A stretch of DNA of 43,008 nt, from positions 1 through 43,008 of the forward strand of contig JALXBI010000098.1 of NCBI GenBank assembly GCA_026991555.1, written 5' to 3'. Of the stretch, positions 38,193 through 43,008 are shown in pieces (position 1 is the first letter of the stretch; each line of letters opens with the position of its first letter). Under the pieces are notes generated by a model. It was not told the DNA's origin, ran no database searches, and was given only the letters and a program-made list of their open reading frames with translations. The stretch comes from Candidatus Aminicenantota bacterium. Its GTDB lineage: Bacteria; Acidobacteriota; Aminicenantia; S016-38. Both the position numbers and the translations under genes were made by a program.

Positions 38193-39278
38193 ATGGACAG
38201 AGCGGAAATTGAGGTTCCCTGGAAGCTGCTTCCTTCACTGGCTCTGGGAGCGGACATGAAGAGGAGTTTTGCCTTAGGAGGGGACAATAAAACCCTCCTT
38301 TTCTTCTCAAGGGTTCCCCTTTCCTCCTTGGAGGATTCCCGGGATTACAGGGAATTTATAATCCAGCAGATGAAGGAGAGGAATTTCGTCCCAGAAAGGA
38401 TAATCGCAGACCTTCATCCCCTATATTTTTCCTCCTCCTTAGCCGAAGAATTTGAAGGTCAAATTGTGAAGGTGCAGCACCACAAGGCCCACATAGGGGC
38501 AGTATTGGGAGAGTATGGGTTAAGCGAGGGTGTCATCGGGGTTTCCATGGACGGGACCGGTTACGGGGAGGATGGGGCAATATGGGGAGGGGAATTTTTC
38601 ACGGGAAATTACAGGGGGCTGGAAAGGACAGGGCACATAAGGTATTTTTTCCTTCAGGGGGGGAACTCCTCGGCTAAGGAGACCTGGAGACCTGCCCTGA
38701 GCATTCTCCGTCTTTTTTCAGAGCGCAAGGCTGTGGAGGTGGCAGAGAGGCTCGGGCCTAAGGCTATGCTTGTTTTAAAGGCCATAAGGGCAGGGGTGGG
38801 CATTGCCAGGACCTCCAGTGCAGGGAGGCTTTTTGACGCAGCCTCCTTTCTCATTCTGGGGATAAGGGAGAATACCTACGAGGCGGAGGGTCCCATTTCC
38901 TTAGAGAAGGCTGCAAGTAAGCGCAAGGAAGGCAGAGCCTATCCCTTTGAGGTGAGGGAGGAGGAAGGGGAATTGCTTCTGGACCCTGTGCCTGCTTTTT
39001 CGGCCATGGTGGAAGAGGAGGCCCCGCCTGAGGAGAAGGCCTTTTCCTTCCATTTGGGGTTTGCCTTAGGGATTGTGGATATGGTAAAAGCTCTTTCTTC
39101 AAGGACCGGGATAAAGAAGGTGGCCCTGAGCGGAGGGGTTTTCCAGAACAGGCTGCTTCTGGGACTTCTTCTGGGAAGACTCAGGGAAGAAGGGTTTGAG
39201 GCGCTGGTTCCCAGGAGGGTTCCTTCCCACGACGGGGGGATTGCCCTGGGACAGATTGTTCTGGGAGGTCTGAGTTGA
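38193..39278 (+). CDS. hypF: HypF C-terminal (Kae1-like carbamoyltransferase) domain as a separate protein
   Basis: 361 aa, about half of normal HypF (around 750). It begins with PWKLLPSLALGADMKRSFAL, the entry of the Kae1-like domain, and has the metal-binding VQHHKAHIGAVLGEYGL, nucleotide-binding GVSMDGTGYGEDGAIWGGEF, and ALSGGVFQNRLLL...HDGGIALGQ. The acylphosphatase, zinc-finger and YrdC domains are absent, and the upstream DNA is a normal intergenic region rather than a broken gene. HypF makes the carbamoyl group for the CN ligands of [NiFe]-hydrogenase by transferring it to HypE. The missing steps would have to be done by a separate protein elsewhere. 4-nt overlap with hypD. Confidence 0.87.
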   Translation: MDRAEIEVPWKLLPSLALGADMKRSFALGGDNKTLLFFSRVPLSSLEDSRDYREFIIQQMKERNFVPERIIADLHPLYFSSSLAEEFEGQIVKVQHHKAHIGAVLGEYGLSEGVIGVSMDGTGYGEDGAIWGGEFFTGNYRGLERTGHIRYFFLQGGNSSAKETWRPALSILRLFSERKAVEVAERLGPKAMLVLKAIRAGVGIARTSSAGRLFDAASFLILGIRENTYEAEGPISLEKAASKRKEGRAYPFEVREEEGELLLDPVPAFSAMVEEEAPPEEKAFSFHLGFALGIVDMVKALSSRTGIKKVALSGGVFQNRLLLGLLLGRLREEGFEALVPRRVPSHDGGIALGQIVLGGLS

Positions 39279-40351
39279 CGGATTTTTTAAAGGACTTTAG
39301 GTCTGCAGGGCTTTTAAACGAACTCAGGGAAAGGCTCAGGGGGATGAAATTTAAAAAAGAAATCAAAATTATGGAGGTTTGCGGGACCCACACCATGCAA
39401 ATTCACCGCTTCGGTATCCACCAGATGCTCCCAGAGGGAGTAAAGCTCATTTCAGGGCCTGGATGTCCTGTTTGCGTAACCCCCAACGAATACATAGATT
39501 TTGCTGTGGAACTGGCCAGGGCAGGATATACCGTGGCCACCTTCGGGGACATGATAAGGGTCCCGGGGAGTTATTCCAGCCTTGAAAAGGTGAGGGCAGA
39601 GGGAGGGGATGTGAGGGTTGTCTATTCTCCCATGGATGCCTACGAAATGGCGAAGGAGGGTGGAAAAACTGTGGTATTTCTGGCCATAGGTTTTGAAACC
39701 ACCGCCCCTTCCATTGCCGCAACCCTTTTAAGGGCGGAGGCCGAAGGGGTGAAGAATTTTTATGTGCTTCCCGGGGGAAAACTGGTTCCCCCTGCCCTTC
39801 GGGCCCTCTCGGCGGACCCGGAGCTTAGAATTTCCGGATATCTACTTCCCGGACATGTGAGCGTCATCCTGGGAAGGAAGGACTATCTTTTCCTTAAGGA
39901 GCTGGGAATTCCCGGGGTTATTTCGGGATTTGAGCCTGTGGACATTCTCCAGTCCATCATCCTTCTTCTCGGTCTTATTAAAGAAGAGAAGGCCGAGGTG
40001 GTGAACAATTATCCCAGGGCAGTCAGGGAGGAAGGAAATCCTAAGGCCAAGGGGATGATGTGGGAGGTTTTCAGGGAAGGGGACAGCCGATGGAGGGGGC
40101 TTGACCTTATTCCGAAAAGCGGGTTATTTTTAAGGGAAAAATACATGGGAAGGGACGGTTTCAAGGCATTTGACATAAGCCCGCCGGAGCCAAAAGAAAA
40201 TCCGGCGTGCCGGTGTGGGGATGTTCTAAAGGGACTTATAAATCCTCCGGAATGTCCCCTTTTCCGGACGGTTTGCACCCCGGAAAATCCCATAGGTCCC
40301 TGCATGGTATCATCGGAGGGAAGCTGCAGTGCGTGGTACAAATTCGGATAA
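39275..40351 (+). CDS. hypD: Hydrogenase maturation protein HypD
   Basis: 358 aa. It starts at a TTG with GGAGG 6 nt upstream, giving the family-typical DFLKDFRSAGLLNEL; the first ATG is far inside. Conserved motifs: MEVCGTHTMQIHRFGIH (Cys36), ISGPGCPVCVTPNEYID (Cys64, Cys67), TTAPSIAATL, and the C-terminal [4Fe-4S] Cys set beginning CRCGDVLKG and including PECPLF and GPCMVSSEGSC. HypD with HypC carries the Fe(CN)2CO unit for [NiFe]-hydrogenase. No hypC lies between hypF and hypD here, since they overlap by 4 nt. Confidence 0.96.
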   Translation: MTDFLKDFRSAGLLNELRERLRGMKFKKEIKIMEVCGTHTMQIHRFGIHQMLPEGVKLISGPGCPVCVTPNEYIDFAVELARAGYTVATFGDMIRVPGSYSSLEKVRAEGGDVRVVYSPMDAYEMAKEGGKTVVFLAIGFETTAPSIAATLLRAEAEGVKNFYVLPGGKLVPPALRALSADPELRISGYLLPGHVSVILGRKDYLFLKELGIPGVISGFEPVDILQSIILLLGLIKEEKAEVVNNYPRAVREEGNPKAKGMMWEVFREGDSRWRGLDLIPKSGLFLREKYMGRDGFKAFDISPPEPKENPACRCGDVLKGLINPPECPLFRTVCTPENPIGPCMVSSEGSCSAWYKFG

Positions 40352-41333
40352 GATAACCCTTGCCCACGGGGGCGGGGGGGCAAAAACCGAAAGGCTCATA
40401 AGGGAGGTCTTTCAGAATTATCTGAAAGACCCTGTGCTTTCGGAAATGGACGACGGGGCATTGGTGGAGGACGGCCTTGTCCTTTCCACGGACAGTTTCG
40501 TAGTAAACCCCCTTTTCTTTCCAGGGGGAGACATAGGAAGGCTTGCGGTTAGCGGAACAATAAACGACATAGCCGTTATGGGAGCCAGGCCCCTTTACCT
40601 TACCTTGGGTTTTATCTTAGAGGAGGGGTTATCCTTGGATGTTCTGGAGAGGGTGGTAAAGAGCATTTCTGCTACTGCAGAGGAGGCCGGAGTAAGGATA
40701 GTGGCCGGGGATACCAAGGTGGTGGAGAGGGGGAAGGGGGACGGGATTTACATAAACTCCTCGGGGCTTGGAAGGCTGGAGATTTCCCCCCCTCCCAGAA
40801 GGGAGAGGATAAAGCCAGGGGACTTGGTTATAATAAACGGGCCGGTGGGGCTTCACGGTATGGCCATTCTGCTTTCCCGGGGGGAGCTTGGGCTTGAAGC
40901 GGAGATAAAAAGCGATGTGGCCCCCCTCTGGGGACTAATAAAGGAGGTTCTCTCGCCGGAGATTAAATTCATGAGGGACCCTACCAGGGGAGGGCTGGCT
41001 GCGGTTTTAAACGAAACCGTGGAGGGGATGGAATTCGGGGTAAGGCTCTGGGAGGAAAATATTCCACTGACAGAGGAGGTTGAGGGGATATGCGAGGTTC
41101 TGGGTTTTGACCCGCTTCAGCTTCCCAACGAGGGAAAGGTCCTGGTTTTCGTAGAAAGGGAAAGGGCAGAGGAGGTTCTTGAGAAAATGAGAACCCATCC
41201 CTTAGGAAGAGCATCTGCCATAATAGGGGAGGCTACGGAGGAATATCCCGGAAAGGCGGTTTTAAAGACCCGGGCGGGAACCCACAGGATAATAGAGCCT
41301 CCCATGGGCGAACTACTGCCGAGGATATGCTGA
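40329..41333 (+). CDS. hypE: Hydrogenase maturation protein HypE
   Basis: 334 aa from a GTG with GGAGGG 8 nt upstream, overlapping hypD by 23 nt. It shows ITLAHGGGGAKTERLIREVF, the ATP-binding DGALVEDGLVLSTDSFVVNP, GTINDIAVMGARPLYLTLGF and FMRDPTRGGLAAVLNE. It ends GELLPRIC: the C-terminal Cys is the residue that HypF carbamoylates and HypE dehydrates to thiocyanate. Complete and presumably functional. The next gene is darT, starting 7 nt before the hypE stop. Confidence 0.97.
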   Translation: MRGTNSDKITLAHGGGGAKTERLIREVFQNYLKDPVLSEMDDGALVEDGLVLSTDSFVVNPLFFPGGDIGRLAVSGTINDIAVMGARPLYLTLGFILEEGLSLDVLERVVKSISATAEEAGVRIVAGDTKVVERGKGDGIYINSSGLGRLEISPPPRRERIKPGDLVIINGPVGLHGMAILLSRGELGLEAEIKSDVAPLWGLIKEVLSPEIKFMRDPTRGGLAAVLNETVEGMEFGVRLWEENIPLTEEVEGICEVLGFDPLQLPNEGKVLVFVERERAEEVLEKMRTHPLGRASAIIGEATEEYPGKAVLKTRAGTHRIIEPPMGELLPRIC

Positions 41334-41983
41334 AAATGGGAGGGGAAAATCCCAAAGGTAAATGGATTGAATTTCTAAGAAGAAAAACAGAGTTTCTTTA
41401 TCACATAACCCATGTGGATAATCTTGAAAGGATTCTGAAGGAAGGCTTATTTTCTAGAAACGAAGCCATTGAAAGGGGAATTTCCTTCAGGGACATTTCC
41501 ATGAAAGAGGTTCAGGATAGGCGAAAGGGCAAGGAAATTTTCGGCAGGACAATTCACGATTATGTGGCCCTTTATTTCAACCCAAGGAATCCAATGATGT
41601 ATGTGGAGATAAACAGGAAGGAGAAAATAGCGGTGATAGCTGTAAGCCTGGAGGTGATTTTGAAAGAGGGGGTTATTTTTTCCGATGGAAATGCGGCTTC
41701 GGACAAAACGGAATTTTATAATGAATTTGACGCCCTGGAAAAACTGGATTGGCGCTCTATTTTGGCAGAATATTGGACCGATGGGTGGGGACTTCCAGAT
41801 TATGAAAAAAAGAGAAAGATATGCGCGGAGGTCCTGGTTCCCCAGATGGTGGAGGTGGAATATTTTGAAAAATTGTTTTTTCCTAATGAAACCCTGAAAA
41901 ATGAGATGGAAGAAAAGCTGGGGTATTTGTTGGAGAACTTAGGAATATCCGTGGAAATTGTCCCGGCCATTTTTTTCGCTTAA
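41327..41983 (+). CDS. darT: DarT-type DNA ADP-ribosyltransferase toxin
   Basis: 218 aa. The family architecture (DUF4433) is clear: FLYHITHVDNLERILKEGL (His26, His29 near the NAD site), QDRRKGKEI (Arg65/66), IHDYVALYFNPRNPMMYVEI, DWRSILAEYW and KICAEVLVPQ, where Glu168 aligns with the catalytic Glu of DarT. DarT uses NAD+ to ADP-ribosylate thymidine bases in single-stranded DNA and is toxic without DarG. The coding DNA looks more A/T-rich than the hyp genes, suggesting acquisition. A second ATG at 41336 is possible. It overlaps hypE and lies next to darG. Confidence 0.92.
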   Translation: MLKMGGENPKGKWIEFLRRKTEFLYHITHVDNLERILKEGLFSRNEAIERGISFRDISMKEVQDRRKGKEIFGRTIHDYVALYFNPRNPMMYVEINRKEKIAVIAVSLEVILKEGVIFSDGNAASDKTEFYNEFDALEKLDWRSILAEYWTDGWGLPDYEKKRKICAEVLVPQMVEVEYFEKLFFPNETLKNEMEEKLGYLLENLGISVEIVPAIFFA

Positions 41984-41986
41984 AAT
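41958..41986 (+). promoter_or_regulatory. Probable darG promoter inside the end of darT
   Basis: -35 TTGTCC (4 of 6), 17-nt spacer, -10 TAAAAT (41981-41986), which contains the darT stop codon TAA; then 6 nt and the darG ATG. It would give the antitoxin a separate, leaderless transcript. Confidence 0.55.
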
Positions 41987-41992
41987 ATAAAT

Positions 41993-42676
41993 ATGATTCA
42001 TTATGTAAACTACAGTGTTTTTGACGCTCCAGCCCAAACCATAGTTAACACAGTAAATACTAAGGGGGTGATGGGAGCAGGACTTGCCTTAGAGTTCAGG
42101 CTAAGGTATCCGGATATGTTTGAGGATTATAAATTGAGATGCAAGCGGGGAGAGGTAAAGCCAGGGGAACCTTATATTTTCAGGGAAACCAGACCCTGGA
42201 TTTTGAATTTTCCCACTAAGGATCACTGGAAATATCCTTCCAGACTGGAGTGGATAAAGAAAGGGCTAGAAATTTTCGTTGAAAAATACAAATGGTGGGG
42301 GGTTCAATCCATAGCTTTCCCATTGCTGGGGACAAGAAACGGAAAACTGAGAAAGGAAGAGGTCCTGAGGATTATGCAGGATAAATTGTCCCAGCTGGAA
42401 ATACCGGTTTATATATGTTTTGATGAAAAGCCCAAGGAGGGCGGGGTGGAATGGAGAATGTTAGAACTTTTAAGGAAAATCTCTCCCCGGGCGCTTCACA
42501 AAGAGGCCCATGTGCCTTTATCTCTTGCCAAGCGTATAAAACAGGAGGATATTTCTCGGTTTCGTCATCTCCGCAGGTTGGAAGGGATAGGGCCCAGGAC
42601 ATACGAAAAAATTTTTATGTTTTTTTATACCAAAGCGTTGGGAGCCGAAAGCAGACAGCCTTCTCTTTTCCCTTAA
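41993..42676 (+). CDS. darG: DarG-type macrodomain antitoxin (DNA ADP-ribosylglycohydrolase)
   Basis: 227 aa. The macrodomain occupies about 1-150: IVNTVNTKGVMGAGLALEFR binds ADP-ribose, and WILNFPTKDHWKYPSRLEWI contains Lys76, which corresponds to the catalytic Lys of DarG; AFPLLGTRNGKL completes the site. It removes ADP-ribose from thymidine and thereby reverses DarT. The C-terminal part is short (about 75 residues versus about 200 in longer DarG proteins) and contains a helix-hairpin-helix-like LEGIGPRTYEKI (196-207). It starts 10 nt after darT and is followed 1 nt later by hypA. Confidence 0.92.
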   Translation: MIHYVNYSVFDAPAQTIVNTVNTKGVMGAGLALEFRLRYPDMFEDYKLRCKRGEVKPGEPYIFRETRPWILNFPTKDHWKYPSRLEWIKKGLEIFVEKYKWWGVQSIAFPLLGTRNGKLRKEEVLRIMQDKLSQLEIPVYICFDEKPKEGGVEWRMLELLRKISPRALHKEAHVPLSLAKRIKQEDISRFRHLRRLEGIGPRTYEKIFMFFYTKALGAESRQPSLFP

Positions 42677-42677
42677 T

Positions 42678-43008
42678 ATGCACGAGGGAAGTTTTGCCAG
42701 GGCCATTATTCTCACCGCCAGCAAGGAAGCGGAGAAGGCCGGAATAAGGGAGATAAAGAGAATAAAGGTGGCTATCGGAGAAATCCACGCGGTGGTGGAG
42801 GATTTCCTTATTACAGTATTTGACATGATGAAGGGGGAATACGGGCTGGAAGGAGCCTCCCTTGAGGTGGAAAAGGTTCCCCTGAAGGTCAGATGCGCCT
42901 CCTGTGGAAGGGTTTACTCCCCGGAGGAGCCGGTTTTCCTCTGTCCCTATTGCGGGGCTGTGGGGGGAGAGGTGCTCCAGGGGGAAGAACTTCACATAAT
43001 TTCCATAG
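42678..43008 (+). CDS. hypA: Hydrogenase nickel-insertion protein HypA (3' end outside window)
   Basis: 110 codons are present; the frame is open at the edge and only a few residues should be missing. It begins MHEGSFARAI, with the N-terminal Met-His-Glu nickel site (His2, Glu3), followed by RIKVAIGEIHAVVEDFL. The structural zinc site CASC...CPYC (Cys 73, 76, 89, 92) is intact. HypA delivers Ni to the hydrogenase large subunit with HypB. The ATG lies 1 nt after the darG stop (TAATATG) without its own SD, so translation probably depends on darG. Confidence 0.95.
   Translation, partial: MHEGSFARAIILTASKEAEKAGIREIKRIKVAIGEIHAVVEDFLITVFDMMKGEYGLEGASLEVEKVPLKVRCASCGRVYSPEEPVFLCPYCGAVGGEVLQGEELHIISI

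Follow-up and report, generated by a model that had tools for sequence, protein, structure and literature searches.

A DarT/DarG-family gene pair inserted between hypE and hypA in the hydrogenase-maturation operon of a Candidatus Aminicenantota bacterium

The window analysed here, a stretch of 43,008 nt, derives from contig C98 of a 1.9 Mb genome (G000; 125 contigs, 99% complete), and at its 3' end the plus strand carries the gene order hypF-hypD-hypE-darT-darG-hypA. The hypF gene (38193..39278, +) encodes only the Kae1-like carbamoyltransferase half of the protein (361 aa; Pfam HypF_C and HypF_C_2), its match in a profile search covering positions 392-738 of the 741 in TIGR00143. It is followed by hypD (39275..40351, +; PF01924, E 5.6e-140) and hypE (40329..41333, +; TIGR02124, E 1.8e-131), the latter ending in a TGA stop codon at 41331-41333 that directly precedes the inserted DNA and encoding a protein with 95% identity to the HypE of genome G001. 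To the right of the insert lies hypA (42678..43008, +; PF01155, E 1.8e-26), which is cut by the contig end. The HypE domains, HypD and HypA each score over their Pfam cut-offs. This hypA was the sole hypA match found in the genome, which also encodes a NiFe hydrogenase large subunit and HypB. The minimal, Kae1-like form of HypF recurs family-wide (G000-G006) alongside hypD, hypE and NiFe hydrogenase; the zf-HYPF domain (PF07503) was found neither in G000 nor in any of six further same-family genomes, and occurs in G008-G011, of the same class, within ORFs of 763-979 aa.

Global alignment against G001 revealed a single gap running exactly from the hypE stop to the hypA start, corresponding to an insertion of 1,344 nt (41334..42677, +) that consists essentially of the darT and darG reading frames and little else. 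Because G001, the closest relative, shares approximately 89% DNA identity with the window on either side of this gap, the insertion can be located with single-base precision: in G001, a member of the same genus, GAGGATATGTTGA directly abuts ATGCACGAGGG from hypE stop to hypA start, and in the window GAGGATATGCTGA is followed by the 1,344 nt of extra DNA and then by ATGCACGAGGG. The hypE and hypA genes overlap (TGATG) in G002 and G003 with no module between them, and G005, a further genome of the same family, has a short hypE-hypA gap, likewise with no module. The junction is thus empty in all three same-genus relatives (G001-G003) and in G005, and the insertion is therefore specific to this lineage. 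Furthermore, DarT had no match in any of the six same-family genomes (G001-G006), and in a search of 100 genomes it was matched in just two relatives besides G000, HypE being matched in most. A first-pass annotation of this DNA had proposed a DarT/DarG pair inserted within the hyp operon. This is borne out, with boundaries now fixed by the G001 alignment; the outcome that would have spoken against it, a native darTG at the hypE-hypA junction of relatives, was not what the comparison returned. A search around the insert for target-site duplications, terminal inverted repeats and recombinase remnants gave nothing convincing; the motif ATATGC is common to both sides, but the ancestral junction is not rebuilt from it.

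The first gene of the insert, darT (41327..41983, +, from the first ATG), encodes a protein that matches Pfam PF14487 across the full profile (positions 1-201; E 2.1e-46; 158.6 bits, cut-off 22.5) and the PADLOC DarT profile with an E value of 1.6e-48. Its score against the NCBIfam equivalog NF048013 was 139.8 bits, with 150 needed, and for so divergent a sequence we accordingly speak of a DarT-family protein and not of an equivalog of a characterised DarT. In an alignment of 28 DarT proteins the sole invariant glutamate was Glu168, at the position of the known catalytic residue (E160 in T. aquaticus). The AlphaFold model of DarT (pLDDT 94, with residues 1-4 disordered) found its best PDB matches in the DarT structures 7omu and 7omv, and both DarT and DarG were also matched by sequence to solved structures of their respective families. 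The gene is thus an apparently intact one for a predicted DarT-family toxin.

The partner gene, darG (41993..42676, +), encodes a protein of 227 aa comprising a macrodomain (approximately aa 1-142) and a helix-hairpin-helix (HhH)-like C-terminal domain (approximately aa 150-220). The macrodomain is clear from both Pfam Macro (E 1.5e-12, above the cut-off) and PADLOC, aligns to 5m31 over aa 1-140 and, in a model with pLDDT 95, has the T. aquaticus DarG macrodomain as its best PDB match (Foldseek TMt 0.90 to 5m3e). Lys76 is invariant in an alignment of 38 DarGs and lines up with FPTKKHW in T. aquaticus DarG, the segment in which the catalytic Lys80 lies (PMC5179494). The description of the pair as intact by DarT Glu168 and DarG Lys76 was therefore well founded, both frames appearing intact and both residues being invariant. 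NF048014 matches DarG over aa 3-141 only, ending at position 145 of the 338 in the profile, and the score of 164.9 bits falls short of the equivalog cut-off of 250. The canonical C-terminal DarT-binding domain was not detected, and the HhH-like domain stands in its place, with five helices and a conserved GxG hairpin motif in model and alignment and a weak match to the ComEA profile (E 0.027). Nearly all of 37 aligned DarG relatives, which were chosen for layout, share the macrodomain plus HhH-like arrangement. A macrodomain alone is reported to suffice as antitoxin (PMC5179494), so that the missing canonical DarT-binding domain need not leave the pair unworkable. The antitoxin is a macrodomain protein, and not the NADAR/YbiA antitoxin that beside DarT would mark a DarTG1 system.

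The two genes differ in composition from their surroundings. GC content is 41.0% in darT and 43.8% in darG, against 50.1 +/- 2.2% (minimum 45.2%) in the 31 other genes of the window, which alone, and not the whole genome, served as background; GC3 is 0.47 in both genes, about 3 SD below the value of 0.58 +/- 0.04 for the others. The earlier impression that the pair is more A/T-rich than its flanks is confirmed, since darT and darG are the two most A/T-rich of all 33 window genes. Foreign composition and absence in relatives together support a recent horizontal gain. Searches identified no donor, the closest DarGs over most of the length, from cyanobacteria, Candidatus Syntrophoarchaeum, Hydrothermarchaeum and Desulfonema, being only 43-50% identical. 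Viral contigs searched with DarT alone gave no relative, and searched with a two-sequence DarG alignment gave 43 loci; among plasmid and phage records the best DarT match reached 36%.

Comparing the junctions of G001, G002 and G003 with that of the window reveals a GAGG motif (41321..41324, +) in the last codons of hypE; in the same-genus relatives it lies 8-9 nt before the hypA ATG. In the window two in-frame ATGs follow the motif, one only 2 nt away (41327), from which darT would overlap hypE by 7 nt, and one at a distance of 11 nt (41336). Given that the model leaves residues 1-4 disordered, ATG 41336 is the likelier start of darT. Counted from the first ATG, the junctions of the hypE-darT-darG-hypA series are as tight as had been described, with a 7-nt overlap followed by gaps of 9 nt and 1 nt. 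Neither darG, which starts 9 nt past the darT stop, nor hypA, which starts 1 nt past the darG stop, has a Shine-Dalgarno site, and translation by coupling or reinitiation would therefore be the likeliest route for both. That hypA has no such site of its own, as first remarked, is true; yet the condition is not rare, a 4-nt site being missing from roughly 14 of 32 window ORFs when the most upstream starts are taken. A promoter upstream of darT would not fit into the insert, and counts of promoter and terminator patterns across the region were not above those in shuffled sequences. As the module sits exactly between hypE and hypA, it probably rides on transcription and translation of the hyp operon.

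Taken together, these observations define darTG as a recent, lineage-specific gain within a hydrogenase-maturation operon, and we consider it probable that this is a promoterless module of the DarTG2 type that is expressed from the operon, is translationally coupled and acts like other DarTG systems. A complete darT-darG module of this thymidine-type class would have landed exactly between the hypE stop and the hypA start and would be expressed as one unit with the hyp genes. In that arrangement the Shine-Dalgarno site at the 3' end of hypE, used for hypA in relatives, would direct translation of darT, and ribosomes would reach darG and then hypA through coupling or reinitiation at the stop codon of the gene before. 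DarTG2 carries out reversible ADP-ribosylation of thymidine in single-stranded DNA (PMC5179494, PMC7003065), and by family the pair should act in the same way: DarT would modify thymidines of single-stranded DNA using NAD+, and DarG would remove the ADP-ribose mark and restrain DarT. Loss of this restraint, for example in phage infection, would stop replication; phage protection is among the roles reported for DarTG (PMC11543638). Co-transcription, coupling, catalytic activity and a defence function are thus what we infer from sequence and family membership.

It is pertinent to ask whether the arrangement could be false or old. The assembly is fragmented into its 125 contigs, and contig C98 ends 331 nt after the insert, in the last codons of hypA, as might be expected had unrelated DNA been joined into the hyp operon during assembly or binning. 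However, the DNA on either side comes from one and the same lineage (89% identity), the gap comprises exactly two reading frames from stop to start, and the gene order of the relatives' operon resumes on another contig of the same genome, C72, which begins inside the next gene (97% identity to G001). A chimera would not be joined so exactly and, as the flanks and the following contig fit, we rejected an artefact as very improbable. At least as improbable is that darTG was ancestral in the operon and was lost in relatives. Nothing was found in favour of this, losses would be needed in G001, G002, G003 and G005, and the foreign composition disagrees with it; the empty junctions of the relatives led us to reject this also.

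The explanations that remain, namely an operon-borne defence module, an addiction and a neutral passenger, overlap with one another. It is possible, although we would not expect it, that the module simply landed without breaking a gene, was tolerated and will decay, with the linkage benefiting neither partner. Its presence in a single genome and its foreign composition would suit such a history, and survivable insertion points are in any case those between genes; but both frames are intact, the catalytic residues are conserved, and the start-to-stop fit would need luck or trimming of the flanks. The first-pass annotation had instead suggested addiction by operon capture, in which losing the pair could silence hypA. 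Of this proposal, a foreign and apparently intact darTG within the operon stands. The silencing is not supported in that form, for exact removal of the module would recreate the junction of G001, hypE-TGA-ATG-hypA with GAGG at a distance of 9 nt, and loss as such therefore need not silence hypA. Only frame-disrupting or partial losses of darTG would be expected to be polar on hypA. A narrower version holds that frameshift or nonsense mutations in darTG, being polar on hypA, would cost hydrogenase activity, and that selection keeps the arrangement for this reason. The separation of hypA from its ancestral Shine-Dalgarno site by an insert whose darG stops 1 nt before it speaks for this version, as do the single hypA copy and the presence of the hydrogenase and HypB. 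Nevertheless, we regard it as unlikely, considering not only the clean deletion but also the restriction of the module to one genome and the frequency of starts without a Shine-Dalgarno site in the window; moreover, since the insertion is recent, intactness says little about selection.

It is tempting to speculate further that promoterless DarTG cassettes land at coupled junctions of metabolic operons, appropriate the Shine-Dalgarno site that served the next gene and render its translation dependent on their own, a generalization that we offer as a long shot. If true, inactivation of toxin or antitoxin would be punished via the metabolic pathway, and the pyrK of Candidatus Syntrophoarchaeum would be a second, operon-terminal case. 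At that locus (L062, 3491-5812), the nearest parallel to the hyp-operon darTG, darT and the end of a pyrK-like gene share 10 nt. The pyrK-like gene closes its operon in a relative; darTG is missing from the site in a relative that encodes a 79% identical PyrK. After darG, the contig end of L062 holds an 86% identical repeat of PyrK-like aa 166-202, which may have arisen by duplication during insertion or may reflect a break in the assembly graph. In Desulfonema (L065, 2110-5726) an apparent pyrB-pyrC pair, identified by eye and not by profile, ends 74 nt before darTG, so that two HhH-type DarTGs have been seen beside pyrimidine genes.

These two loci, together with those of Hydrothermarchaeum (L066) and a Klebsiella plasmid (L058), encode DarGs that likewise combine a macrodomain with an HhH-like C-terminal domain (225-241 aa, 37-50% identity to DarG here) beside DarT, but their gene neighbours are different, and in none of the four was the pair seen flanked on both sides by genes of a metabolic operon. 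This points to a widespread DarG type in which an HhH-like domain replaces the described DarT-binding domain, and of which we found no description in the open-access literature searched. An Oscillatoriales genome (L063, 3750-4991) encodes a DarT with an N-terminal cold-shock domain, and a genome of the same phylum (L040, 1492-2667) a DarT-DarG macrodomain fusion in one protein of 391 aa, like PDB 7omu. With a simple ORF caller 38 other DarTG pairs were listed, most of them with looser flanks; only one, L134, which lies in an apparent restriction-modification operon, shared the tight same-strand junctions (10 nt or less) found here on both sides of darTG. L134, L072 and L131 have restriction-modification-like neighbours, named by eye without a profile search. 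The DarT calls in L074, L077, L116 and L135 were distrusted, being long ORFs with weak matches.

The pair resembles the DarTG2 systems of T. aquaticus, M. tuberculosis and EPEC (PMC5179494, PMC7003065) in the order of darT before darG and in catalytic domains, folds and catalytic residues, and differs from them in its DarG, which at 227 aa is without the C-terminal part of the equivalog model and has the HhH-like domain instead. DarTG has been described within type I restriction-modification operons, with a proposed role as locus stabiliser (PMC5179494), and in M. tuberculosis darT-darG is co-transcribed with dnaB (PMC12170906). No description of DarTG in a hydrogenase- or cofactor-maturation operon was found in the open-access literature searched, and the same is true of the HhH-type DarG; the restriction-modification and dnaB settings are those already known. 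The M. tuberculosis pair is transcribed together with a housekeeping gene, as the present one probably is with the hyp genes, yet it is ubiquitous in the M. tuberculosis complex and linked to replication, whereas the insertion described here is confined to one lineage and lies in a metabolic operon. As the states before and after insertion can be read to the base, the idea that such a module stabilises itself through the dependence of a neighbour becomes directly testable. Like the DarTG of restriction-modification operons, the pair is embedded in a host operon, but the host operon here is one for synthesis of the NiFe cofactor, which places DarTG in a metabolic rather than a defence operon.
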